Source: Phycisphaerales bacterium (GTDB lineage Bacteria; Planctomycetota; Phycisphaerae; Phycisphaerales; SM1A02). From it: 64,000 nucleotides of DNA. The position numbers were made by a program, and so were the translations under genes. Where the stretch lies: positions 1 to 64,000 of the forward strand of contig JAKVBU010000009.1 of the NCBI GenBank assembly GCA_022446885.1. The letters run 5' to 3'. A model generated the notes under the pieces. That model ran no database searches. It was not told the origin of the DNA and saw only the letters and a program-made list of their open reading frames with translations. Within the stretch, counting starts at the first letter, position 1. Each line of letters starts with the position of its first letter. Below are positions 3,533 to 60,076 of this stretch, in pieces.

Positions 3533-5340
3533 CGGGTCACCTCCGTGATGCGGTCCATCAATGACTCTACCTGCTTGCGGGTTTGCTCATCAATTGACGC
3601 AGAGGCGCCACCGAACGTCAACCCCTCGAGCGTGCTGAGCATCGACTGGAGTTGGTCGGCTGTTTCAGACTGCTTCGCCCGCAGAGCGACCGTCAATTCA
3701 CCGATCGAACTGCCTCGTGGCAGATCCAGGCGGTCGATGACCAGCGTTCTCAGCGCGCCGGCGACGGCGTCTGGTCGGTTGCCGGCTTCACCCAGGGCTT
3801 CAGTTGCCCGCCGGAGCGCCTTTCGTGCTCGGCCTCGGGCTGGATCGCTTGCCGCCCGCCGGGCTACGTGGCGACTCGATGCGGCTCCAATGAAGATCAC
3901 GGGTGGCACCAGCAGGGCGGCGAAGAACCAGGCTGGTGAAGGTTCTGCGGGCGTACCCAGCAGGAGGTCGGGATCAGAGATGTTCGCAAGCAGCCCGCCG
4001 TGCATCGCCTTGAGCGATCCTCCATCCAAGTCGTCCACGCTGGGCATGCCTGGCAAGTCCGCTGCTCCAACAGTGCGGCCAGCGTGCACATCGAGCGGAA
4101 TGGGCCCCGCGAAGACCGTCTCCCAAGTTCCGCTGGTGGGGTCGAAGAAGGAGAAGGGCACCGGCGGAATGAGGTCGATGTCATCACGCATGGGTCGAAT
4201 CGACTGCGTGAACGTCTTTGAGCGACCGGAGACGATGCCGCCGGGTCGATCATCAGGCACCTTGAAGTCGGCGGTGAGTTCCGAGACGTCTTCGAGGGCC
4301 GGGGCGGCCAATGTCTGCATGTCGGTTGGACGCTCGGAGACGTCACGCACGGTCATGCGAAGTGTGACTGGCTCGCCCACATCGACAGAAGCTGGTGTGG
4401 CGGAGAGGTCAAACTCGAATCGACCAACGGCCCCCGTCCATCCCGGCGGTCGCCCCTCAGCGGGAGGGGTGTTTACCTGAATCAACATTGGCTCGGGCCG
4501 AGCCGTGACGGGGCGCGACTGAACAATTCGCAGCCCACCTCTTCCCATCAGATCATCCAGAGGGTTGCGGCTGCGACCCACTTCCAATGGGTAGTCGATG
4601 CCAATCGTGACATCGGCGACGTCCACGGGCCCCGCCCGGTCGGGCCGCATGGTCGAGGGCACATCGAAGATGTACCAGATCACTTCGCCTGCATCGTCTC
4701 GGATGCTCGATACCGGCGGCATTCGCCGCTGTTGAGAGAGGTGTTCAACCGTCGATGCATAGGGGCCCCAGTCGCTCGTGCCCTGGGCAATCAGACGCCA
4801 GGTATCGGCCGCCGACAGCCGGCCCGAAGGCAGGGCGGAGTGCTGGAACGGACGAACGCGAACACGGAGCGTTGAGTCGAGGACGTCGCCCAGCCAGGTT
4901 CCTTGAGCATCAGCTTCGACCGATGCCTGCAATAAGGCGTCGTCGTCGGAAGGAAGGAACTGCAGGGTGAGCGGCTCGGTTCTGAAGCGCTGTTCATCGG
5001 CAATCAGATCGAAGGCGGGGATTGTGAAACTGCCTGCGCGATCAGCAGTGATGGCTACGGGCCAGGTCGTCTCCGATCGCTCGACACGCTGGCCGAAACT
5101 CAACGTGATCTGGCTGCTCGTGTTGGCCGGGTGAATCTGATACTGCAGACCATCCACTGGCGGAAGCTCCGGTGGCAGCGGCGACTCGACGTTGCTGTAG
5201 ATGTACTGCACGATCAGGGGTCGACCAACCCAGCTTGTACGTTGCCGGGCTGACTGAAACACCTCTTGCGCCGATGCCGTGCTCACCAGCGTGCCGGCGA
5301 CCAACGCCCACTTGATGCAGTGTGTCATCACGCCTGCCAT
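3529..5340 (-). CDS. batD: BatD-like exported membrane protein
   Basis: About 603 residues: signal peptide (first 25, ending STASAQ), tandem beta-sandwich BatD repeats, one membrane helix near residues 465-483 (WFFAALLVPPVIFIG) and a cytoplasmic helical tail. The periplasmic part probably works with the VWA proteins BatA and BatB. The ATG at 5340 is preferred because AGGA lies six bases upstream; a GTG directly before it (5343) is the alternative and would give the 4-base overlap with batC seen elsewhere in the operon. It overlaps batE by four bases. Confidence 0.88.
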   Translation of the reverse strand: MAGVMTHCIKWALVAGTLVSTASAQEVFQSARQRTSWVGRPLIVQYIYSNVESPLPPELPPVDGLQYQIHPANTSSQITLSFGQRVERSETTWPVAITADRAGSFTIPAFDLIADEQRFRTEPLTLQFLPSDDDALLQASVEADAQGTWLGDVLDSTLRVRVRPFQHSALPSGRLSAADTWRLIAQGTSDWGPYASTVEHLSQQRRMPPVSSIRDDAGEVIWYIFDVPSTMRPDRAGPVDVADVTIGIDYPLEVGRSRNPLDDLMGRGGLRIVQSRPVTARPEPMLIQVNTPPAEGRPPGWTGAVGRFEFDLSATPASVDVGEPVTLRMTVRDVSERPTDMQTLAAPALEDVSELTADFKVPDDRPGGIVSGRSKTFTQSIRPMRDDIDLIPPVPFSFFDPTSGTWETVFAGPIPLDVHAGRTVGAADLPGMPSVDDLDGGSLKAMHGGLLANISDPDLLLGTPAEPSPAWFFAALLVPPVIFIGAASSRHVARRAASDPARGRARKALRRATEALGEAGNRPDAVAGALRTLVIDRLDLPRGSSIGELTVALRAKQSETADQLQSMLSTLEGLTFGGASASIDEQTRKQVESLMDRITEVTR

Positions 5341-6440
5341 CACCAGTCCTTTCCTGTGGATGGGCGGCCCGGACGTTCCTGGGCGTCCTTCTCAGCCTGC
5401 GCCTTGGCTCGATCTCGCACCCGCTGCAAGAGCCGCATGGCCTCCTGGGGGCTCATGGGCCTGGCCTCGCCCTGCGGTTGGCCTGCAGCCTGTTGCTGAC
5501 TGTCAGCCTGCGACTGGGCCGCCTCATTGGGAGGTTGCTGGGCCTGTTCCTGCTGTGAGGGTTCACCTTGTTGGGGCTGCTGCTGATCTTGCTTTCCAGG
5601 CTCGTTCTGCTGCTGCTGCTGCTGTTGATCTTGCGGCTGTGACTCGTCCTGTTGGGGCGACTCAGACTGATCCTGCTGCTCGCCCTCATCAGAGGCGTCT
5701 TCTTGCTGCTGCTGATCTTGCTGCTGCTCGCCCTGATCAGCGTCATCCTGACCTTGTTCTTGTTCCTGCGACTGGTCTTGGTTTTGCTCCGCCTGATCCT
5801 GCTCACCTTGATCAGCGTCATCCTGGCTTTGCGATTGATCTTGTTGCTGATCTTGGTCCTGCGCTTGTTCCTGCTGCTGTTGCTGCTCAAGCAACTGCTG
5901 CAGCCGCTCCCACGTGAGCTGCGCATTGGCCCGAGCATCAAGCGCGTCAGGCGTTCGAGCGATGGCCTCGCGGTAATGACCAAGGGCTTCTCTGAGCCCG
6001 TCGATTGCGGCCTGCTGGTCAGCACGAGCGTCGGGCGTGGGGTGCAACTGGTTGGATGAGTTGCCCAAGTTGTAGGCCGCGTCAGCGCTCAGGCCAGGAT
6101 CGCTCGACCGCTCCAGGGCGATCGAAAAAGCCTCGGCGGCCTGTTCCCATTGTTGGGCCTTGGCCCAAGCCACACCTTCGTCATAGGCCAGCACAGCCGG
6201 CGGATCGTCCAATCGCTGCCGCGCTGCCTGCAGCCGGTGAGCGGCATCCGTCCAACGCCCTTTGCTCAGATCGTCGCCCGCCAGATCGATGAGCGACTGG
6301 GCCGAAGCTCCGTCTGCAATGACCGGTGCGATCACAGCCTGCTCTGGCAGCCCTTCAAGCACCTGCGCCGAGGCATCGGTGGGGGCGACGGGCTGGAGCG
6401 GTGTGCTCAAGAGCGTGAGGATGAGCGTCGTTGTGATCAT
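5340..6440 (-). CDS. batC: BatC-like TPR protein with a long Gln/Asp/Glu-rich segment
   Basis: About 366 residues. The ATG at 6440 overlaps the batB stop (ATGA) and opens a signal peptide/anchor (MITTTLILTLL...). TPR helices follow (about 50-170, with AAYNLGNS). Then a low-complexity segment (about 183-310) is built almost only of Gln, Asp, Glu and Ser in QDQ/EQQ/DQSQ steps, mostly CAG and CAA codons. The C-terminal PMSPQEAMRLLQRVRDRAKA matches the usual end of BatC proteins. The Q-rich part is probably disordered; it is far longer than the short linker normal for the family. An upstream in-frame start at 6500 is unlikely because it would lie inside batB. Confidence 0.85.
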   Translation of the reverse strand: MITTTLILTLLSTPLQPVAPTDASAQVLEGLPEQAVIAPVIADGASAQSLIDLAGDDLSKGRWTDAAHRLQAARQRLDDPPAVLAYDEGVAWAKAQQWEQAAEAFSIALERSSDPGLSADAAYNLGNSSNQLHPTPDARADQQAAIDGLREALGHYREAIARTPDALDARANAQLTWERLQQLLEQQQQQEQAQDQDQQQDQSQSQDDADQGEQDQAEQNQDQSQEQEQGQDDADQGEQQQDQQQQEDASDEGEQQDQSESPQQDESQPQDQQQQQQQNEPGKQDQQQPQQGEPSQQEQAQQPPNEAAQSQADSQQQAAGQPQGEARPMSPQEAMRLLQRVRDRAKAQAEKDAQERPGRPSTGKDW

Positions 6441-7468
6441 GCCGGCACCTCCCGCGCGGCTGAGGGGGCGGGCCTGGTCCAGCATCGACCAAGCAACCAC
6501 TCGAGCACCAGCAGGAACAGGGCACCGGTGACGAACCAGGTGTACCGCGGCACCATCTGTTCGACCATGGCACTGGCAGTTCGGCGTCCCGACCCGGGCG
6601 CGATCACTTGCTCATAAATGTCGGCCAGATCGATGTTGTTCGTTCCGGCGGGAATGAATGCGCCGTCACCGGCCAGCGCAATCTGCTCAAGCAATTCGCG
6701 GTGCATCTTCACCCACACCTCTTCGCCCGCGTGCGTGAAGAACAGCCGTTCGCCATTGACTTCTATCGGAATGCGCGAGCCCGTCTCGGCATCACCAAGA
6801 CCCACGGTCCACACTCGAATGCCGGCCTCCTTGGCGGCCGCAGCTGCTTCGATAGGCCATGACTCCATGTCATCACCGTCACTGAGCACGATGATCGCCT
6901 TTGCTCCCTGGCCGTCGCCGGTGAACGACTCCGCGGCGAGCCGAATGGCATCGCCCAGCAGAGAACCGCCGGCGCCGCCGGTACGGGGGCCAATGGTCTC
7001 GAGTGCAAGTCCAATGGCTGTGGAGTCACGCGTCAGCGGTACTTCAAGCGAGGCTTGCCCGGCGAATGTCACCAACCCCATTCGATCGCCCGCGGCAGCT
7101 TCCAAGACGTCGTCGATCCAACTGGCGGCACGCTCGAGGCGACTGGGCGACAAGTCATCTGCCAGCATCGATCTGGAGGCGTCGAGCACGAACATCACGT
7201 CGATATTGCGCTGAGCCACCGACTCATATCGCACGCCCCATCGCGGGTCGAGGAGGGCGACAACGAGCAGCAACATGGCAACGACCATCATCGAGCCACG
7301 CAGCAGGTGGCGGGTGAGCCCGGCCGAGGCCTGCAGACGCTCACGCATGTCTGCGGTGGCGAGCTTCGCCATGGCACGACGTCTTGCCGAGATACCCACG
7401 GCGACGAGTACGCCCGCACCGATGATGGTCCAAGCCCAGAACAGCGAGTCCAGATGAAGAAACGACAT
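6437..7468 (-). CDS. batB: BatB-like VWA-domain membrane protein
   Basis: A 343-residue inner-membrane protein: two N-terminal membrane helices (about 8-25 and 58-75), a von Willebrand factor A domain (about 88-285) and a C-terminal membrane helix (about 308-330). The metal-ion-dependent adhesion site is intact (DASRS near residue 95, then a conserved Thr and LSDGDD). VWA domains bind protein partners through the metal. It starts two bases after batA and overlaps batC by four bases, so it is translationally coupled within the operon. Confidence 0.9.
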   Translation of the reverse strand: MSFLHLDSLFWAWTIIGAGVLVAVGISARRRAMAKLATADMRERLQASAGLTRHLLRGSMMVVAMLLLVVALLDPRWGVRYESVAQRNIDVMFVLDASRSMLADDLSPSRLERAASWIDDVLEAAAGDRMGLVTFAGQASLEVPLTRDSTAIGLALETIGPRTGGAGGSLLGDAIRLAAESFTGDGQGAKAIIVLSDGDDMESWPIEAAAAAKEAGIRVWTVGLGDAETGSRIPIEVNGERLFFTHAGEEVWVKMHRELLEQIALAGDGAFIPAGTNNIDLADIYEQVIAPGSGRRTASAMVEQMVPRYTWFVTGALFLLVLEWLLGRCWTRPAPSAAREVPA

Positions 7469-7470
7469 GA

Positions 7471-8559
7471 TCAGGGCACCGTGCGCCAGCGAGTCGCCGA
7501 CGCGATCATCTCCAGAAGAACAAGGGCGATGGGAATCAACAGCAGGGGAGGCAGCAGCCAGCCCGCGACTCGAACGCGGTCTACGGCCAGATCAGTCACA
7601 TGCAGGAAGGACTGCTGGGCGATGGTGGTTCGCTCCAGTTTGTCGATCGCTTCATAGACATCTCGAAGCCCGTGTGCATCAGAGGCCTGAAAGAAGGCGC
7701 CGCCGGTTTGATCGGCAATGGCCTGCAAGGTCTGTGTGTCAACATTCACCGGGCGATAGTCGAGCACATCCCGGCCGAAGGGGTCGACCACCGGCACCGG
7801 CACAAGGCCACCGCCGGGCTGACCCACGGCGATCGTGTACACCTTGATGCCGAACGCCGCAGCCAATTCGGCCGCCTTGAGCGGTGGGATCTCACTGTCA
7901 GTGTCTTCGCCGTCGGTGAGCAAGATGACGACGCGCGATGCGATGTCGTCGGTTTCCAGATCGGGGCGATCTTCGAGATCGGCCAGCCGGGCGACGGCGA
8001 GCGCAAGCGCATCACCTATGGCGGTTCCGGCACCCTCCTGATCTGTCGCGATCCGAGTTCGGCCAATCGCTTCGCCGAGAAACTCGTAGTCGTAGGTCAG
8101 CGGTGAGGCCACGCGTGGTACAGAAGCGAACGAGATCAGCCCGACCAGATCATGCTCGCGTCCCTTGAGATCACCTTCGCCCAATACGAAGTCTTCTGCC
8201 ACGACCCGAGCGACATGCAGTCGATCGGCCGACAGGCGGTCGGGATCCATGTCCAGAGCTCGCATCGAGCCTGAGCGGTCGATCAACAACTGGATGGCGA
8301 CGCCATCGGCGTGGTGTGAAATTTCCTGATCGCCGCGAATTGGGCGGGCCAGCAGCACGATCAGCGCCACCACGGCACCGGTGCGCAGCGCCGGAATCAC
8401 CCAGCGTGTGCGAGTGGCCCATGTCGGCTTCACCAACTTCGCGATTCGGATCGACGACCAAGTCAGTGCCGGGCGAGTGGGCCGCCGCCATGCCCACCAG
8501 ATCAGCGGCACCAGCCCAATCATGAGCAGCAACCACCAGGGAGATGCCAGAGTCGTCAC
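7471..8559 (-). CDS. batA: BatA-like VWA-domain membrane protein
   Basis: A 362-residue protein with two N-terminal membrane helices (WWLLLMIGLVPLIWWAW, then about 56-72), a VWA domain (about 88-310) with MIDAS residues DRSGSM, and a C-terminal membrane helix (about 335-352). ILLTDGEDTDSEIPP is the usual second metal-binding strand. It is the paralogue and likely partner of BatB next to it. Its ATG overlaps the preceding lipoprotein gene by four bases (ATGA). Confidence 0.9.
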   Translation of the reverse strand: MTTLASPWWLLLMIGLVPLIWWAWRRPTRPALTWSSIRIAKLVKPTWATRTRWVIPALRTGAVVALIVLLARPIRGDQEISHHADGVAIQLLIDRSGSMRALDMDPDRLSADRLHVARVVAEDFVLGEGDLKGREHDLVGLISFASVPRVASPLTYDYEFLGEAIGRTRIATDQEGAGTAIGDALALAVARLADLEDRPDLETDDIASRVVILLTDGEDTDSEIPPLKAAELAAAFGIKVYTIAVGQPGGGLVPVPVVDPFGRDVLDYRPVNVDTQTLQAIADQTGGAFFQASDAHGLRDVYEAIDKLERTTIAQQSFLHVTDLAVDRVRVAGWLLPPLLLIPIALVLLEMIASATRWRTVP

Positions 8560-9557
8560 GTAGCACCTCCCAAGGCTGAGTGTTCAGCCGGGCCGTGCTC
8601 AGTTTCGATCAGATCCGTCTCGTCCACGAATGATCGAGCTGTCTGCATGGCTTGCGTGCCGGCGTTGAGATCGGGTGTGTGACGGGCGAACTTGACCAGA
8701 TCTGCCAGCGTCAGCAGCCGATGCAGGCTGGCACGGTGATCCTGTTGCAGGGCGCTGCTGCGCTGCGCTTCCTCCAAGAACTCACGGGTAGTTGCCCGAG
8801 GGGCTCGCAAACCCATGCCGTCCTCGAGATACCGCCTCACGATGTCAGCTACGCGAGCGAAGTATGCCTCGGAGTTGCCCACATCAAGCAGCCCCTCACG
8901 TTCCAGATGTTCCAGATCGCGGCGGGCACGCTGGGCAGGCGTGAGCGGCACCATCGCTGCCGCTGACCCGCGGCGCATCCACCACATGGTCGTGGTGAGC
9001 AAAAGGATGGAGAGGGGCAATGCCATCCACCACCATGGCGAAACACCGCTGACTGGCAGCGGGCGCTCATCACGCATGGCTCGCAATTGACGCTCGCCAT
9101 CAGCCAGTGCGCTCGTCACGGCGAGGTCCAACGCGGGCAACTGCACCCAGCCATCAACAGCCGGCGTGCCACGGTTGTCGGTGTACTCCACTCGAAGTTG
9201 GGGCAGTGATACATCGCCGGTCTCGTATGTGTCGAGCACAAGTGTCTGCATCCAGCGGCGGCGCCCGTCTTCCAATGGCAGATCAGGCGTCTGGTCAGAC
9301 TGCAGCACGTTGAACGAGCCGATGGCGTCGTCTTCGATCGTCAGCAGCGGCGTGCGAACCTGCACATCGGCGCTGGCCTCCACGGTCACAACGAGAGAGA
9401 TCCGCTCGCCCGCCATGGGCTGAGCCGGAGCGATCGTGGCCTGTGCGCTGACCGGGCCTCGCGCAGCCTCTACCTGACGCGACTGGGCGTCGGTCGTCTG
9501 AGCGACTTCGCTGCAGGCGCCAGCCAGCAGCGTGCCGGACAGGAGGATCACTCTCAT
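8556..9557 (-). CDS. BatD/DUF4381-like lipoprotein of the MoxR operon
   Basis: A 333-residue protein. The N-terminus has a lipobox (LLAGAC, Cys about 15), so the mature protein is probably membrane-anchored at its start. A beta-sandwich region follows (about 35-165, resembling the N-terminal BatD repeat), then one membrane helix (WWWMALPLSILLLTTTMWW, about 175-195) and a cytoplasmic helical domain with RRDLEHLEREGLLD and YFARVADIVRRYLED, as in DUF4381-type proteins of MoxR operons. It overlaps its neighbours by four bases on both sides. It is likely a membrane partner linking the DUF58/MoxR pair to BatA. Confidence 0.75.
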   Translation of the reverse strand: MRVILLSGTLLAGACSEVAQTTDAQSRQVEAARGPVSAQATIAPAQPMAGERISLVVTVEASADVQVRTPLLTIEDDAIGSFNVLQSDQTPDLPLEDGRRRWMQTLVLDTYETGDVSLPQLRVEYTDNRGTPAVDGWVQLPALDLAVTSALADGERQLRAMRDERPLPVSGVSPWWWMALPLSILLLTTTMWWMRRGSAAAMVPLTPAQRARRDLEHLEREGLLDVGNSEAYFARVADIVRRYLEDGMGLRAPRATTREFLEEAQRSSALQQDHRASLHRLLTLADLVKFARHTPDLNAGTQAMQTARSFVDETDLIETEHGPAEHSALGGAT

Positions 9558-52374: not shown

Positions 52375-54198
52375 TCAGGAATCGTCGCTGGCGGCCTCGC
52401 CGATGTCCGGTCGGGGCTCGTAGTCGCTGAGCGTGCCCCAGCGCTGCAATTCTGCCAGTACGCGGTCTTGTTCAGCCTTGAAGTCGCAAGCGAGATAGCC
52501 GGCCTTCCACACATCGTGGAGTACACCGACAGTCTGCCCGTAGGACAGGTTCAGCCCGGGCGGATCGCCTGGCTGCCGCGGTCGCCAGGCCAGAGCCCGG
52601 ACGAGTTCCGACACGCTGGCTCGGCAATTGATGGTCAGTGCCTCGGCGCCGCCATCAGGCCTGAAGCGAAGTGACAGCCCGCCATTGACCGGATCCTCGC
52701 GGATCATCAGTTGCTCCCCCAGCGTGGAGCAGGCCATGGGGCGATCAATGGGGAGGTCACCACCGAGCACCGCGATGCCAGGCCGCCGACTCTGCGTGAC
52801 GTAGATCGTCTTGTAGGACGAGGGCGCAATGTCCAGATTGAACTTGCCCTCCAAGGGGAGCGTCTGCAGCAACTCACTGGCCCGATCTCGGAGTGCCTCG
52901 TATGAGCGCAGTCTCACCTCGAGGTCGTCATCTTCGAGCATCTCGCCCAAGGCGACATCGGTTCGCGGATCCAGCGGCAGTTCCTTCATCAGGGCTGCGG
53001 CCTCGAGACGTGCTCCGAGGGTGCCCTCGGTGCCCATCGACCGCAGGGGCTCGCCCACAATCGGATCTGCCAGTGCTGCGCCCGCCCGCAGTGAAACAAG
53101 GCGCGGCGCCTCTTCGGGGTGGTCATAGAGTTCGCGAATGAAGGGCAGTGCCCGTTGGCCCAGAGCGACCCAGCGCCAGTATGCCTCCGAGGCGAGGCTC
53201 GGATCTGCAAGCAACTGGCGCCGAGTGTTGTTGGCGATCAACTCGGCGCGAGATTGCGCCAGCGTCGTTCGCATCACGGTATTCACGAAGGTATCGGTGT
53301 CGTCACGCATCGACGGCGGCACTGTGAGTGCAATCGTGGTGTCGTTTTCGCCCTTGGCGGTGTCCTGCCCCTGACCGGGCTCGAAGGGGAAGCGGCGGTT
53401 GATCGCATCCTGAATCAGCCTGGCTCTGGTGTGACTGGGGTTGCTCAGCATGAGCTTCAACGGGAGGTCCTTGGTGACCTGACCACCGTTGAGTACCCGT
53501 CCGGATCGAAGCGTGACGTCGGTGGATCCTTCAGCGGCGCCGTTCACAAACGGATTGATGAAGATCGGTCCGCCGCCTTCGGCAATGATGCCCGCCTGTC
53601 TCGACCCGGCCATGAGTGCGCCAGGCCTCAGGTCAGTGGTGTACAGATGGCCGCCCTCGAGGCTCGTTGTACTGGTGCGTTGATCGGCCGAGACCAGAAT
53701 GTCGAATGTCGTGCCAGGCATGATCTCGGGCTTGCGGCCCGCGATGGGTGGCGTGCGTTTTCGACCTACCGCACCCTGTGGCACGATGCCCTCGACAATC
53801 ACCACTGCCGTATCGGGTGAGTCGAGCAGCTCTTCGCCCTTGAGATGGGCCCAGCCGCTGGCATGCTGGCCAATGCCCATGCGGGCCATGTGTTGCAGCA
53901 TGTGGGCTCGAACATCGGGAGGGATGTCGCCCGACCCGGTGCCCTGAAGGCCCACGACCAGTCCGTATCCACGAACGACAGTGGGGACATGTGATGGGGA
54001 TGATCGATCGTCCCATCCGAGGATGATGCACTCGGATCCAACGGTGCCCCTTGTGATGGCCGGGGCACCGCCACCAGGGTCGATGCGGTGCGTCGAGTTA
54101 CCACCGCGTGCCCGCGGCGCGGCATCCTCGATCGTGTTGCAGCTCGCCAGAAGTGCGGCCGCCAGCATGCTCGTCAGTAGCAAACGAGGTGGGGTCAT
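52375..54198 (-). CDS. FlgI (P-ring)-like lipoprotein, non-flagellar context
   Basis: A 607-residue lipoprotein; the ATG at 54198 starts a signal with lipobox ALLASC (Cys about 20). Residues about 50-300 resemble the flagellar P-ring protein Flg[32 protein letters not shown], and [20 protein letters not shown] helical HEAT-like part follows (about 340-480) with an additional C-terminal beta domain. No other flagellar gene is in the window. FlgI forms a periplasmic ring; this protein may form a similar ring in another envelope machine. It lies just downstream of the EssC/FtsK-like gene on the same strand. Confidence 0.7.
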
Positions 54199-54227
54199 GG
54201 ACCCCGAAGTGTACCCCCCTGATCGCC

Positions 54228-54398
54228 TCAGGCGGCAGGGCGAACCCGCTGTTCGTGGGTTCGCTGCCATGTGACGGCATCAATGCGGTCGGAGAATCGA
54301 GCCAGAATGATCGGAACGGCTGTTCGAGTGCAAACGGCCCAGCCGGCACCAATCTTCAGCAGCATCGTTGAGTTCCCAGTAGTCGAGTCAGCGGTCAT
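54228..54398 (-). CDS. Possible 56-residue small protein
   Basis: A short frame in the 337-base gap between the FtsK-like and FlgI-like genes. AGGAG lies about nine bases before the ATG at 54398. Residues 12-27 (MLLKIGAGWAVCTRTA) are moderately hydrophobic and the end is basic. No family recognised. The placement in a same-strand gap and the ribosome site support it; lack of homology evidence keeps confidence low. Confidence 0.35.
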   Translation of the reverse strand: MTADSTTGNSTMLLKIGAGWAVCTRTAVPIILARFSDRIDAVTWQRTHEQRVRPAA

Positions 54399-54535: not shown

Positions 54536-57500
54536 TCAGTGGGGGTCGGGGGCCGCATTCTCGGACCCCCAGAGCCTCTTGATGGTCGCAGCCGCCTGTT
54601 CCAGCCATTGTGGATCGGGAAGGGCCCAGGGCCGAAACTTCTCCAGCGTGCCCGTGTCTTCCACGTAGAGCAGCCCACGGTGCAGGCCCAGATCAGAGGC
54701 GGCGGTGGAGTCGATGAGCTGTCCTGAGTCGTTGGCGCTCATTTGGAAAAGTACCTTCTGCTCAAACTCACGCTGCGCATTGCGATCGAGTGTTCGACTC
54801 AGATTGGCTGCTGCATCGAACCACAGCAAAGCGTGCATGCCCACCGACGGGCCCTCTCGCAACACGTCGGCGAGCACCTTGTCGGGGCGTGGGCCCCTGT
54901 CGTCATCATCGTCCATGGAGAAACTGAAGTCGTCTTCATGTGCACGCAGGTCGCGAATGCGATGCACGTCGACGCCCACGATCAGCACGGTTGCCCTGCC
55001 TTCACGCCGGCCGTCGGCGCGGTTCGAAAGGGTGTCGGCGAGCGCCTGCATGGCGGGCTCAACATTTCGGGCCGTGACTCGGGTGACCTGATGCGGAAGT
55101 GCCGCGGCAAACGAAGCCAGTCGGCCTGCGAGCATCGCATCGGGTGACTGGCCGTCGATCAACCAGATCTGCAAACCCGGATCATTGAGGCTTGGAGCTG
55201 GGGCCAACCGTAGCGCCGCCTGCAGCATGGCGCCGGTCAAGACTGCCGTAGCGGCTTCAGGGTGCTGGCCCACGAGCAGGGCGTTGCCACCAGCCTGCGG
55301 CCTGAGCGTGAGGTCGGTTGACTCCCGAATGGCTACGGGCTCACCCAGTCTCAGCGGCAACAGACCGCCATCGGGAAGTGGCGGCGCTTGTCCTGCAAGG
55401 GCGTCGCGAACCAGTCGGTCATCAGGAAGAGAAGCGGGCACGTGCCCCTTGAACACGAACTGCTCTCGCCGAGTGCCACCATCACGCTGGAGGGCATCTG
55501 CGAGGATGCCGTCACGTCGGGCGTCGTCGAGCCAGACGATCTGGAATGGGGTGTTTCCTTCAATGCGGCCGCCGGCGTCGTTGTAAATGGCCTCGCCGGG
55601 GCGGCCAAGCAGGCGGGCGGCGGGATTGTCGTCGCTCAGGATCAGGTATGAGTCGCCCTCACTGCACTGTAGAGCGATACGAACACCCATCTGACCGAGC
55701 GTACTTCGGGCCAGCGAATAGGCCCCATCGAGTGTCTGTGATCCGAGGATGGCGTGCATGCCGAAGGCTCGGCCTTGCCGAACCAGACGATCGAGCAGCA
55801 GAGATGCTTCTTGAGCAACTGGATCGTCGTCAACGAAGAATTCTTGGAACTCATCGATGATCAACAGAACGCGTGGCATTGGCTCGTCGGAGATCTCACG
55901 GAACCCTGCGATGTCCTGAACGCCCAGGTCTCGGAACTTCTCGCCACGGGTGCGCAACTCGACATCCAGCCTGCGCAACACACTCAGCCCGAACTCACGA
56001 TCGCTCTCGATGGCGATGACTCGGGCATGAGGCAGATCGCGGTTTGAATAGGCCTGAAACTCCACGCCCTTCTTGAAGTCCACGAGATAGAACTCGACTT
56101 CATCGGGCGAGCACCACTGCGATAGATTGGTGATCAGAACATGCAGCAGCGTGGACTTTCCCGAGCCGGTCTTGCCTGCGACGAGGGCGTGCTGCATGGT
56201 TCCCCGGCCCAGCCGCAATTCGAGCCGCCTCGTAGCGCCACTCTGGCCGATGGGCACTCGCAACTCGTTGGCGGTGGAGCGGCTCCAAACTTCCTCGGGG
56301 GAAGGCGCAACAAAGTCGAACGAAACCTCTACTCGGCGGCTGCCGGCTGCCGCCTCACCAACACGCTCGACGATCATCGTCAGGCAGTCATCATCTGGAG
56401 GCGGTTCAACCGACACGGGCATGGGTGGCAGTTGCGGATGCTGCAGCGACCATGTGCCTTGGGCGCACTGCAACCTCAGTGCGCCAGTATTCAGGGCGGT
56501 CTCCGACAAGCCCTCTGGTAGGGGGCGGGCGGTGTCTCGCAGGATCATCGTGAAGACGCCGCAGCGGCGGCCACTGGCGATGATGCTCTCCAGTCGGTGC
56601 ACGCTGCGTTCACTGAGCCCTTCGGGAAAGTCGGCCAGCACCAGCAGGCGATAGGGCTCTGCAATCTCACCGGCCTGCGCGTTGTACTCCTCGATCGAGT
56701 CGTACTCGTTACGCAGGTAGGTCTGGATGACGTTCTCCATGTGTTCCGTGAGATCGGTCAGCCGTTGCTCGATGTGAGCGGCTTCGGTCCAGATCCGGTC
56801 GAGTACATCGGCTTCTTCATGGTCCGCCAGATGCATGAATCCAGCGAACTCCTGCCCCAGTCCAACCGGATCGCAGAGCACAAGCCGCAGTCTGCCAGGC
56901 GGAATCGTGGTCACGGTTCGAAGCAGAATGCTTCGGAGGGTTTCAAGCGCGTGGGTGCGGCTGGCCGCGTCATGTTCGATGCGAAGGGCGCCCAAATCAC
57001 CGAAGTTCAGGCTCAGCGGTAGATCGATCGTGCTGGGGCCCGTCCACGCAAGGGACGCGTCGTCGGGCAGGCCGCCTCCGACCGCAGGGGCATCGAACTG
57101 CATCGTGGCCACCCGAACATCACCATCGAACGTCTCGGCCATGGGGCGGTCCGACCACGCCGGATCACTCCAGAGGGGACCGCAGGTTTCGTCCATCGCC
57201 TCGATCGATGATTGCAACTCGGCGAGCGAGGCCTGCCCGGAACTCCAGTGGGAATGCAATCCATCCAATCCTTGTCGCAGCGTCTCGTTCGCCTGATCGG
57301 TGCCTTTCCTGTGGTGGGTGTGTGATGCTTGGAGACACTCGGCTTTGGTCTGCTTACTCGATGTTCGGGCTGACTCGATGATCCGAGCCGACTCTGTCTG
57401 AGCGGACTCGAGTTCATCCTTGGCAGTTGTCTGAACTTGCGTTCGACGGGACTCGAGTTTCTCTAGACGGCGGTCCATGCGCGGGCCTGACCGCTCCACT

Positions 57501-58429
57501 TGATCAGCAAGGAATTTTCGGGCACCAGCTTGTTCATCCTCTCTCTTCTGCCGTGCCGCCCGCTCGGCCGACTTGAGCCGCTGCGAGAGCACGTCTCGTC
57601 TTCGCATGGCCAACACGTCAGCGCGGCGAGCCATTCGTTGGGATCGAAGCAAGCGAGAGCGGCTCTTGCGCATCTGCAGGATCCAGAGCGACGTCAAAAG
57701 AACCGCGGCGACACCCACGCCGCCACCGATGGCCGGAATCTGATCCAGTTTCTCAATCAGGGCGAGTACGACGCCGACCGCGACGGGCACGACGACTGCG
57801 GTGCCACGAGCGATCCACCGATAGACCTTCGTTGAGACACTTCCCAACTCGAGGTCGACGAGCGACTGGGCGTCATTGAGCAGCGTGTCGATCAGGCCCG
57901 GATCGGGCAATTCCGGCCCTGGGTTCGACTCGGGCTCCGCGTCCAGTTTTGGCGCAACTTGTCGAATACGGCCCAGAAGTGTTGAGCTGCGCCGCTGGGC
58001 GTCGGTGAGCTCTGCTTCAGCGTGCCGGAGCGCCTTCTCCGGTTCGGTCAGGGCTGCCTCGTACATGCTCTCTGCGAGCCATTTGGCCTCGTCGGCCTGT
58101 TTGGCGGCATGAGTACGGATGGACTCAGACTCATCCATGATCTCCTGCCGGCGACTGCCGTACTCGCTCTCGAGGCGATCCAGTGTGGCGGAAGTCTTGG
58201 CCTGCGTTGTCTGCAGCAAGAGGGCGCTGTCGGCCTGAGCCTGTTCCATGGCTACCACGGCTTCTGATTCAGCCCGGCGGGTGGACTCAGCATGCTCTTG
58301 ATTCAGCGTTTCAATCGACTCGGCGTGCGTCGAGTGTAGTGCTTCCAGACCAGCTCTCGTGCTTGCAATCAGCTCGATCGCATCGGTGACGTACGAAACG
58401 ACAGCAGGTTGGAGGCGTTGATCGCTCAC
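54536..58429 (-). CDS. EssC/FtsK-SpoIIIE-type ATPase of a putative type VII-like secretion system
   Basis: A 1297-residue protein from a GTG at 58429 (an earlier in-frame start at 58591 would overlap the previous gene). Layout: coiled coil (about 20-165); two membrane helices (about 206-226, 234-252) in a hairpin; a second coiled coil (about 255-400); a degenerate FtsK domain (about 470-690); an intact one with Walker A GKTGSGKSTLLH (about 750) and Walker B PRVLLIIDEFQEFF (about 851); and a third degenerate domain (about 1040-1280) ending with an FtsK-like GQLIDSTAASDLG block. Two membrane helices and several FtsK domains are the EssC/EccC layout. Two WXG100-like genes lie just upstream. Confidence 0.85.
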   Translation of the reverse strand: MSDQRLQPAVVSYVTDAIELIASTRAGLEALHSTHAESIETLNQEHAESTRRAESEAVVAMEQAQADSALLLQTTQAKTSATLDRLESEYGSRRQEIMDESESIRTHAAKQADEAKWLAESMYEAALTEPEKALRHAEAELTDAQRRSSTLLGRIRQVAPKLDAEPESNPGPELPDPGLIDTLLNDAQSLVDLELGSVSTKVYRWIARGTAVVVPVAVGVVLALIEKLDQIPAIGGGVGVAAVLLTSLWILQMRKSRSRLLRSQRMARRADVLAMRRRDVLSQRLKSAERAARQKREDEQAGARKFLADQVERSGPRMDRRLEKLESRRTQVQTTAKDELESAQTESARIIESARTSSKQTKAECLQASHTHHRKGTDQANETLRQGLDGLHSHWSSGQASLAELQSSIEAMDETCGPLWSDPAWSDRPMAETFDGDVRVATMQFDAPAVGGGLPDDASLAWTGPSTIDLPLSLNFGDLGALRIEHDAASRTHALETLRSILLRTVTTIPPGRLRLVLCDPVGLGQEFAGFMHLADHEEADVLDRIWTEAAHIEQRLTDLTEHMENVIQTYLRNEYDSIEEYNAQAGEIAEPYRLLVLADFPEGLSERSVHRLESIIASGRRCGVFTMILRDTARPLPEGLSETALNTGALRLQCAQGTWSLQHPQLPPMPVSVEPPPDDDCLTMIVERVGEAAAGSRRVEVSFDFVAPSPEEVWSRSTANELRVPIGQSGATRRLELRLGRGTMQHALVAGKTGSGKSTLLHVLITNLSQWCSPDEVEFYLVDFKKGVEFQAYSNRDLPHARVIAIESDREFGLSVLRRLDVELRTRGEKFRDLGVQDIAGFREISDEPMPRVLLIIDEFQEFFVDDDPVAQEASLLLDRLVRQGRAFGMHAILGSQTLDGAYSLARSTLGQMGVRIALQCSEGDSYLILSDDNPAARLLGRPGEAIYNDAGGRIEGNTPFQIVWLDDARRDGILADALQRDGGTRREQFVFKGHVPASLPDDRLVRDALAGQAPPLPDGGLLPLRLGEPVAIRESTDLTLRPQAGGNALLVGQHPEAATAVLTGAMLQAALRLAPAPSLNDPGLQIWLIDGQSPDAMLAGRLASFAAALPHQVTRVTARNVEPAMQALADTLSNRADGRREGRATVLIVGVDVHRIRDLRAHEDDFSFSMDDDDDRGPRPDKVLADVLREGPSVGMHALLWFDAAANLSRTLDRNAQREFEQKVLFQMSANDSGQLIDSTAASDLGLHRGLLYVEDTGTLEKFRPWALPDPQWLEQAAATIKRLWGSENAAPDPH

Positions 58430-58466
58430 GTGTTCAGTGTAGGGCGGCGGCCCCCTCCATCTGGAC

Positions 58467-58679
58467 TCACTGACAGTCTCGCTCGGCACGTTGCAGGAGT
58501 ACCTGCACCTCGTCGAGGGCGCTGGCGGCGTTTCGCACTGATCGTTCAAGCGGATCCAGCCAACGCGAGCCGAATCGCTCATGCTGAACATCGCGCCAGC
58601 CTTCGCCGGCTCGTTCCCAGGCGACCTTCAGCATTTTGGTGGTCTCCTGCATCGCCTTGGCCCGATGGGGCATGCTCAT
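58467..58679 (-). CDS. WXG100-like small helical-hairpin protein (second copy)
   Basis: A 70-residue protein predicted as two helices joined by a turn at GWRDVQHERF (Trp28-Arg-Asp30). The turn motif W-R-D-x-x-H-x-R-F is shared with the 90-residue protein at 59267-59539. No signal peptide, no Cys-rich part except one near the end. The ATG overlaps the upstream stop by four bases (ATGA), and the ATPase gene starts 37 bases downstream. A candidate substrate or co-factor of the secretion ATPase. Confidence 0.7.
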   Translation of the reverse strand: MSMPHRAKAMQETTKMLKVAWERAGEGWRDVQHERFGSRWLDPLERSVRNAASALDEVQVLLQRAERDCQ

Positions 58680-59260
58680 TGCTCGGGCTCCTTGGGGTCG
58701 TTTACGACTTCGCCACTTCGGGCTCGAGAAGCAGTTGGCGTGGCGGCATCAGCATCTTCGAGGGCATCAGGCATGACCGGGGCTTCAGCCACGTAGCCCT
58801 GCAGGTGCTGCTCCAACTGGCCCAGCCAACGCACAGCAGCGGGCAACTCGGCATCAGCCATGGCGGACACTGGTCTCAGCCCAGCGCGGAGGAGGAGGGC
58901 CTGACGTTCCAACTCGACGCCCCATCGCTTGCAGGCACGTGATTTTGCTTGCGCCTCTTCCAGTGCAGCCTTCGTACGGCGGAGCGCTCGAATCTGGTCG
59001 GTGAACGATCTGGGGTCAGCATCGGGCCGGGCGATCTTGGCCCGCTCCAGATCGGATCGAGCAGTTTGCAGCTTCTGGTCGCGCTTACGAAGTTCCGACT
59101 TCCAATGCGATGCTCGATCACGGGTGACCCAGTCGACGAATCGACGCATTGTCGAGTTGCAGTCGTCAACAAGCCTCGCGAGTGTCTCGGCAGACTCGAC
59201 GACGCGGCCACGCAGTTCGCCGACCGCCTTGACTTCCCGGATGTCTGCCTGACGAGCCAT
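58676..59260 (-). CDS. Helical partner protein of the WXG100/FtsK cluster
   Basis: A 194-residue, mostly helical, soluble protein rich in Arg, Ala, Glu and Leu. Long helices lie at about 10-45, 50-80 (DWVTRDRASHWKSELRKRD), 85-125 (DQIRALRRTKAALEEAQAKS) and 130-165; the last 30 residues are acidic and disordered. The start resembles the helical bundle of WXG/LXG-type proteins in length and spacing but lacks a clear WXG. It starts six bases after the first WXG100-like stop and overlaps the second by four bases. Possibly a substrate, chaperone or adaptor. Confidence 0.65.
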   Translation of the reverse strand: MARQADIREVKAVGELRGRVVESAETLARLVDDCNSTMRRFVDWVTRDRASHWKSELRKRDQKLQTARSDLERAKIARPDADPRSFTDQIRALRRTKAALEEAQAKSRACKRWGVELERQALLLRAGLRPVSAMADAELPAAVRWLGQLEQHLQGYVAEAPVMPDALEDADAATPTASRARSGEVVNDPKEPEQ

Positions 59261-59266
59261 GTGCGA

Positions 59267-59539
59267 TCAACGCTGGTTGAGATAGTCTTCCGCCCGCTGG
59301 GCCTTGCGTACCAGAAAGGGGACATGCTCAGCGGTCAGATCTCGAAATCGCGAAATCTGCCGCATGCACTGTTCAAACTCCTCAGTGAATCGTTTGTGCT
59401 CTTGATCTCGCCAGGTCTGGGCCAGATTGCGGTGCCGGGCATTGAGTTTGCTCATTTGGTCCTGCAGCCCCTCAGTGAACCGTTTGAGGTCCTGAGCGAA
59501 TCTGCGCACTTCAGCGGGATCGACAACTGCTTTGGCCAT
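59267..59539 (-). CDS. WXG100-like small helical-hairpin protein (first copy)
   Basis: A 90-residue protein. Helix 1 (about 8-38), a turn at TWRDQEHKRF (Trp43-Arg-Asp45) and helix 2 (about 47-88) match the ESAT-6/WXG100 shape and length. The WXG Gly is replaced by Asp, as in divergent members. GGAG lies eight bases before the ATG. It is followed six bases later by the 194-residue partner. WXG100 proteins are the exported substrates or export partners of type VII systems. Confidence 0.75.
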   Translation of the reverse strand: MAKAVVDPAEVRRFAQDLKRFTEGLQDQMSKLNARHRNLAQTWRDQEHKRFTEEFEQCMRQISRFRDLTAEHVPFLVRKAQRAEDYLNQR

Positions 59540-59584
59540 GGGGGCACTCCGACTCGGGCCATGATCAGGCCCCGTTCCTCAAGT

Positions 59585-60076
59585 CTACGTCCCAGAGTCA
59601 GATTTGGGATCGCCATACAGGCGTTCCGCGCTGCCTTTGACCTCACCGGAGACCTGCCCTCGCAGGGTGACGTGGCGAGCGACGTCCAGCGTCAAGTCAC
59701 CCGTAATCAGGCACCCAGGGGCCAGATCGAGACTGTCTCCCAGAAAGGCGACGTCGCCCTCTATGCGGCCATGAAGTTCGGCGTCGCCACCATAGATAGC
59801 CAATGATGCGTGGCTTCCTTCCGGGAGCGTCACCGACTCGGCGTAGATGAGCAGTGGCTTCTGGGGAGGGGGCTCAACTGAGATGGTGCGCCCGTCCAAC
59901 TCGGTGTATCCCTGATCGAGAAAGCGCTGGCGAAAGTCGCGAAGCACGCCGTCTACTTGCAGTCCAGCGGCGATCATCAGGCCCAGCATCGCAACCGCGA
60001 CCGCCCCCAATGACAGGGCGACCAGTCGGTTGGCTCGGCGGGCGTGGGCGTCGTCTTGTGGATCCACCTCGGTCAC
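59585..60076 (-). CDS. Membrane-anchored bactofilin-like (beta-helix) protein
   Basis: A 163-residue protein from a GTG at 60076 (another at 60067). One membrane helix (about 17-40) is followed by a short linker and a run of short beta-strands (about 75-150: SLAIYGGDAELHGRIEGDV, LAPGCLITGDLTLD, VTLRGQVSGEVKG) as in polymer-forming bactofilins. The N-terminus is cytoplasmic by charge, so the beta-helix may be periplasmic. It lies between the oxidase-biogenesis genes and the WXG100-like genes and could belong to either. Confidence 0.65.
   Translation of the reverse strand: MTEVDPQDDAHARRANRLVALSLGAVAVAMLGLMIAAGLQVDGVLRDFRQRFLDQGYTELDGRTISVEPPPQKPLLIYAESVTLPEGSHASLAIYGGDAELHGRIEGDVAFLGDSLDLAPGCLITGDLTLDVARHVTLRGQVSGEVKGSAERLYGDPKSDSGT

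Follow-up and report, generated by a model that had tools for sequence, protein, structure and literature searches.

Whether a few tightly packed genes in a bacterium with two membranes encode a type VII-like protein exporter, and which of these genes belong to it, is the question raised by this locus. The window (the whole stretch of DNA analysed, 64,000 nucleotides) contains the genes Z, A, B, C and an ATPase gene in this order, all on the minus strand (Table 1). Gaps of 45, 6 and 37 bp separate Z from A, A from B, and C from the ATPase gene, respectively, while B and C overlap by 4 bp. These coordinates confirm the close packing of five genes on a single strand that had been described in an earlier note, which read them as a type VII-like secretion cluster of a diderm planctomycete. 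The diderm host was corroborated by an Omp85/BamA protein encoded in the same genome (147 bits). Immediately downstream of the ATPase gene (window 52375-54270) lies a gene for a FlgI-like (P-ring) domain protein with an extra C-terminal part.

Table 1. Genes and protein domains of the locus in window coordinates; residue 1 of the ATPase is the first residue after the start codon.
Feature	Coordinates	Strand	Basis
Neighbour Z, one-TM bactofilin-like protein	59585..60076	-	sub-threshold PF04519 match
Gene A, 90-aa WXG100-family protein	59267..59539	-	Pfam PF06013
Gene B, 194-aa long two-helix hairpin and disordered tail	58676..59260	-	AlphaFold2
Gene C, 70-aa short WXG-like hairpin	58467..58679	-	profile alignment with A
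ATPase gene, GTG start at 58429, 1297 aa	54536..58429	-	
ATPase, two predicted transmembrane segments, residues ~204-251	57674..57817	-	hydropathy scan
ATPase, degenerate DUF-like domain, residues ~416-696	56339..57181	-	structural alignment
ATPase, active FtsK/EccC-type motor domain, residues ~698-980	55487..56335	-	PF01580, structural and sequence alignment
ATPase, Walker A motif GKTGSGKST, residues 751-759	56150..56176	-	alignment
ATPase, degenerate D3-like domain, residues ~990-1272	54611..55459	-	structural alignment

Membership of the unit was assessed across Planctomycetota, Verrucomicrobiota and Lentisphaerota, in a set of 91 loci free of duplicates. Of the 58 loci whose sequence reached 1.9 kb or more upstream of the ATPase gene, 50 had A, B, C and the ATPase gene in this order on one strand. 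The conservation of gene order, which the earlier note had proposed to check across Phycisphaerae, thus extends over three phyla, and the unit is not restricted to one planctomycete. For seven of the eight exceptions (all but L079), a whole-genome search recovered one clear A elsewhere in each genome; in two of these seven, A, B and C were grouped together away from the ATPase gene. No further conserved gene recurs beside the PVC units. The earlier note had also counted a beta-helix gene, Z, as a cluster member. Z encodes a protein with a single TM segment that matches the bactofilin family (PF04519) at 20.4 bits, under the cut-off of 27.9, and its profile found matches in only 4 of the 91 loci, all of them close relatives. 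We therefore rejected Z as a component; it adjoins the unit but probably lies outside it.

The four remaining genes are inherited together. Among 61 genomes, one of them the window's own and the others from 60 relatives, the ATPase was detected in 40 (partial in G012), A in 38, B in 39 and C in 39, and the two incomplete four-gene sets come from fragmentary genomes. A, B and C were absent from every one of the 21 genomes lacking the ATPase, although phylogenetic relatedness makes these counts non-independent. Each part is present in a single copy per genome, barring weak cross-matches of the C profile to A, and A was found in 53 of 294 genomes of the phylum, always as one copy. In one family, 35 of 37 genomes have the unit, which is thus nearly fixed there; within the order, its losses are frequent. 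The Lentisphaerota genome of locus L090 (G337) also carries an adjacent pair of additional genes (C428:8971-9477) that weakly match the A-like WXG100 type and possibly represent a second system.

The ATPase consists of a coiled coil, two TM segments, a second coiled coil, a DUF-like domain, an active motor and a D3-like domain, where the coiled coils were read from sequence and composition and the TM segments were called from hydropathy. It matched the Pfam family FtsK_SpoIIIE (PF01580) at 101 bits. Every one of the 92 aligned relatives has a Walker A motif of the form GKTGSGKS[TNS] or GRTGSGKST in its middle domain. None was seen in the other domains of the window's protein, which has one catalytic motor between two degenerate RecA-like domains. 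The two membrane segments predicted in the earlier note were thus retained, whereas its three FtsK-like domains were reduced to one active motor and two degenerate domains. By the same hydropathy measure, a long hydrophobic TM span was present in 80 of the 85 PVC ATPases with a complete N-terminus. Searched against the PDB, the ATPase family profile scored 150 bits with EccC, 121 with EccC5 and 107 with YukB, but only 46 with FtsK, in agreement with the earlier view that the protein is EccC/EssC-like rather than FtsK-like. Foldseek aligned the whole AlphaFold model (a single-chain prediction, like all structure predictions used here) with EccC of T. curvata (4nh0; E 3e-32, 957 columns), compared with approximately 350 columns for FtsK. 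Residues 1-281 of the model aligned with the DUF of B. subtilis YukB (9qks, Z 15.1) and also fitted those of EccC5 (7b9f, Z 15.1) and EccC3 (6umm, Z 14.7), while residues ~575-857 aligned with EccCb1 (6j17, Z 20.6) and with D3 of EssC (6tv1, Z 17.7). The domain set is shorter than that of EccC/EssC by one ATPase-type domain.

The motor domain, in contrast, fits the FtsK motor best of all (Z 26.8, versus 23.4 for D2 of EccCb1), as would be expected if the protein were an FtsK/SpoIIIE-type DNA translocase. By sequence, this domain is closest to D1 of EccC/YukB. We regard such a function as very improbable. The FtsK of this genome is encoded by a separate gene, which scored 423 bits with the FtsK equivalog model against 29 for the unit ATPase, and it aligned with the unit ATPase family over only 189 columns, all in the motor region. 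Pfam gave no match to a gamma domain in the unit ATPase, and the DUF and D3-like domains and the WXG100 partners are foreign to FtsK. An FtsK identity was rejected on these scores and on the 46-bit profile match. The motor fold by itself cannot tell FtsK from EccC, a distinction that rests on the domains to either side of it, on the partner proteins and on the profile of the full-length protein. The score with the NCBIfam EccCa model (110 bits) was given no weight as evidence by itself, since the separate FtsK of this genome reached almost the same value (104 bits).

Gene A matched the Pfam WXG100 family (PF06013) at 39.9 bits (cut-off 27.3; E 5e-10), as did 37 of 38 relatives, so the 90-residue hairpin is the WXG100 protein that it had been proposed to be. 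Its turn reads W-R-D in place of W-X-G; W-[RKQE]-D occurs at this position in 61 of 62 relatives and W-x-G in none, and the C-terminal end is conserved as ...KAxRxEDYLxQR. The best PDB match of the gene A profile was H. pylori HP0062 (5e-9), followed by B. anthracis EsxB (3e-5). The single sequence of gene C had no match in Pfam, and 6 of 40 relatives matched PF06013 weakly. Its turn reads W-x-D. Its profile, however, aligned with that of gene A (E 4e-6, probability 87%), which upholds the assignment of this 70-residue hairpin as a WXG-like small protein. A near-invariant Cys lies close to the C-terminus of gene C proteins, within the last 12 residues in 67 of 71 sequences. The YxxxD/E signal of the C-terminal tail was present in 0 of 62 gene A and 1 of 71 gene C sequences; many EsxA proteins of Bacillota likewise lack it.

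The 194-residue protein encoded by gene B is helical, as noted earlier, and was modelled by AlphaFold2 (pLDDT 88.7 overall, ~98 in the helices) as two helices of approximately 70 residues each (7-77 and 83-159). Its profile gave no significant match in the PDB, and Foldseek returned no solved fold at E<=0.001; VIA matches with Z up to 11.7 were dismissed, this being the level expected of any long helical hairpin. No toxin domain was detected in the window's B (Pfam), and neither this protein nor 11 long B proteins gave a nuclease match. These long relatives (336-357 aa) carry an Imm33-like domain (PF24719) as a tail in 10 of 11 cases. Such tails follow the hairpin in some Planctomycetota, mostly Phycisphaerae (L045, L051, L055, L057, L058, L067, L071, L099, L101 and others).

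Taken together, what was found is a partner of the WXG100 family, an EccC/EssC-like ATPase and neighbours that are conserved together, and nothing that the earlier note had named as speaking against it. We consider it probable, with appreciable room for doubt, that the unit is a minimal membrane-anchored type VII-like exporter of diderm bacteria, in which A and C are exported and B is cargo or scaffold. In favour of this reading, A is a WXG100 protein, C is related to it, and the outer domains of the ATPase match the DUF and D3 of type VII systems; the lack of the YxxxD/E signal in A and C counts against it, as do the searches described below, which found neither EssB nor YukD above cut-off in the genome, no outer-membrane partner linked to the unit and no family of substrates. 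In such an exporter, the ATPase would be anchored in the inner membrane through its two helices and, like its FtsK/EccC relatives, would probably form a hexamer. By analogy with EsxA/EsxB, A may pair with C, and the single active motor would be driven by ATP and by the binding of this helical-hairpin pair. The product of gene B, encoded between A and C, would most likely be the cargo or a scaffold that delivers it. The exporter proposed in the earlier note thus stands as far as the WXG100 partner, the type of ATPase and the gene order are concerned; export itself is inferred, and the tail signal is absent.

Like T7SSb (EssC/YukB, EsxA) and T7SSa (EccC, EsxA/B), the PVC unit has a WXG100 partner and an FtsK-type ATPase that is anchored in the membrane and includes DUF and D3-like domains. 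Unlike in both, this ATPase has one active motor and one ATPase-type domain fewer, no FHA domains were detected, the tail signal is missing and the host is diderm. Judged by a broad definition of type VII systems, the locus thus has a WXG100 hairpin encoded with the ATPase (PF06013, conserved linkage) and an EccC/EssC-type membrane ATPase with DUF and tandem ATPase domains, one domain short. EssB and YukD, which belong to T7SSb, were not found in the genome: only two sub-threshold matches to EssB (YukC) were obtained (16.2 and 12.1 bits, cut-off 27.4), as the earlier note had anticipated, and a search for YukD (EsaB) found none, while the B. subtilis control was found. EsaA and EssA are not encoded adjacent to the unit within the window. 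The genome search for EccB gave no match, as was also the case in the control genomes.

Several of these observations would also suit a non-secretory complex of the inner membrane that maintains the envelope or senses stress, with A, B and C as permanent subunits or adaptors. The single copy of every part and the near fixation in one family agree with it, as do the window's B, which lacks a toxin domain, the failure to find extra WXG100 or B-like proteins as a substrate family in the genomes searched, and the lack of a linked outer-membrane partner among the PVC loci. We nevertheless judge it unlikely, since the WXG100/EccC pairs studied so far are exporters (PMC4010439, PMC11217815), toxin and immunity genes accompany relatives of the unit, and the frequent losses within the order are unlike an essential envelope function.

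These linked genes are found among the relatives outside PVC bacteria, for which the submitters' titles are used as taxon names. The unit ATPase is homologous end to end with the ATPases of the Caballeronia plasmid pSBC2-5 (L115; 803 columns, E 1e-75) and of a cat Helicobacter plasmid (706 columns, E 3e-44), and each of these has a linked A relative (8e-20 and 3e-14, respectively). In Helicobacter sp. NHP19-012 (plasmid pNHP190012_1, L114), the genes from the A-like WXG100 gene through the ATPase gene stand in a row at 4758-9160. Between these two lie genes for a helical WHH-nuclease protein, a SUKH immunity-family protein and a 77-aa protein, and the first two are likely to form an effector-immunity pair beside this ATPase family. 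Plasmid-borne relatives thus have, in the position that B takes in the PVC unit, a fusion of a helical protein and a nuclease domain. The presence of toxin and immunity genes beside relatives supports an export role for the ATPase family. In contrast to the WHH/HNH nuclease and SUKH-family genes in B's region on the Helicobacter plasmid, the window's B has no detectable toxin domain, which suggests a different cargo or task, and no sequence match between B and the helical part of the plasmid toxins was strong enough for a common origin. Six ATPase relatives from plasmids or phage collections lack the long hydrophobic span by hydropathy, which counts against the exporter reading, because the ATPase family need not act as a membrane exporter. 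A human gut scaffold (MT836827.1, L119; 584-7371) carries a ThiF-like gene, a 1423-aa ATPase relative and a 349-aa protein that begins with a W-N-D hairpin and has an HELGH metallopeptidase-like motif; it is filed as phage, and its phage origin is putative.

Relatives of this kind also bring up a role in conflict. WXG100/EssC-like operons extend CoCoNuT loci, with ATPases in which only the middle domain is active and TM helices are absent, and with a coiled-coil protein that carries a D-ExK nuclease (PMC11090510). The PVC unit shares with the CoCoNuT-linked operons and pSBC2-5 an N-terminal coiled coil, two WXG100-type proteins and a coiled-coil protein between them, and with the CoCoNuT-linked operons also three ATPase-type domains of which the middle one alone is active. 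It could accordingly be a domesticated chromosomal relative, devoid of a toxin, of the mobile WXG100/FtsK operons linked to TerY-P/CoCoNuT anti-phage loci, serving defence or antagonism. The shared ATPase type, the genes for VWA, PP2C, kinase and Card1-like CARF nuclease proteins beside the Caballeronia unit, the TerD genes near a Rhodococcus relative and the Imm33-like domain of long B proteins are consistent with this origin. The PVC ATPases, however, have a TM span, and no nuclease was found in the PVC B. No TerY-P, McrBC or other defence or Ter genes recur beside the PVC units, a pattern scan of 2.9 million viral contigs found no relative, and the PADLOC matches of the unit ATPase reflect the motor fold only. 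Together with the ATPase tree, these results make a conflict module a distinctly unlikely explanation, more so than a non-secretory complex.

In this tree, built by a quick method, the Verrucomicrobiota formed a single clade, to which the Lentisphaerota were adjacent. Branching along phylum boundaries, rather than a scattered pattern, suggests that the PVC unit descended mainly vertically, with repeated loss. Locus L027, assigned to an alphaproteobacterial host, grouped with planctomycete sequences and probably belongs to a misnamed bin. We also entertain, as a tentative possibility, a more specific form of the exporter reading: a complete, membrane-anchored four-gene type VII branch, ancient in the PVC bacteria and vertically inherited, that functions in cells with two membranes, dispenses with EssB, EsaA and YukD, and serves a conserved physiological task rather than toxin delivery.

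The kind of system is already known from a 2012 report and from work on HP0062. Zhang et al. 2012 (PMC3482391) describe, in footnote 6 of Table 1, a solo WXG protein with a YueA-like ATPase in which only the middle one of three FtsK/HerA domains is active. They name planctomycetes and verrucomicrobia, among other groups, and label such sets mobile versions of T7SS. The combination of a WXG100 protein with an ATPase in a planctomycete, put forward in the earlier note, is therefore present but had been recorded there. The PVC unit resembles those sets in its WXG100 protein and its three-domain ATPase with a sole, central active domain. Unlike the sets labelled mobile, its tree follows the phyla, and relative to that footnote, B, C, the membrane anchors and the inheritance are defined only here. 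In H. pylori, HP0062/HP0066 form a WXG100 secretion-type cluster with an FtsK-type gene (PMC3397514, PMC4978471), and HP0062, like gene A, has WRD at the turn and an FtsK-type ATPase partner. A recent classification of type VII systems covers Gram-positive phyla only, with subtypes T7SSa to T7SSj (PMC11217815). Our search of the open literature found no experimental study of the PVC version. What the present analysis adds is the definition of the unit as four genes, its membrane anchors, the joint inheritance of its parts and a mainly vertical history.

For H. pylori HP0062, which has long been puzzling, the PVC unit supplies partners (B and C) and a comparative frame. A version with only four genes, retained by nearly all members of a diderm family, would indicate the minimal size that a type VII machine can have, and one would have to ask by which route its products pass the outer membrane. 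As the unit has few parts and these are inherited together, both the minimal size and the passage across the outer membrane are directly testable by deletion.
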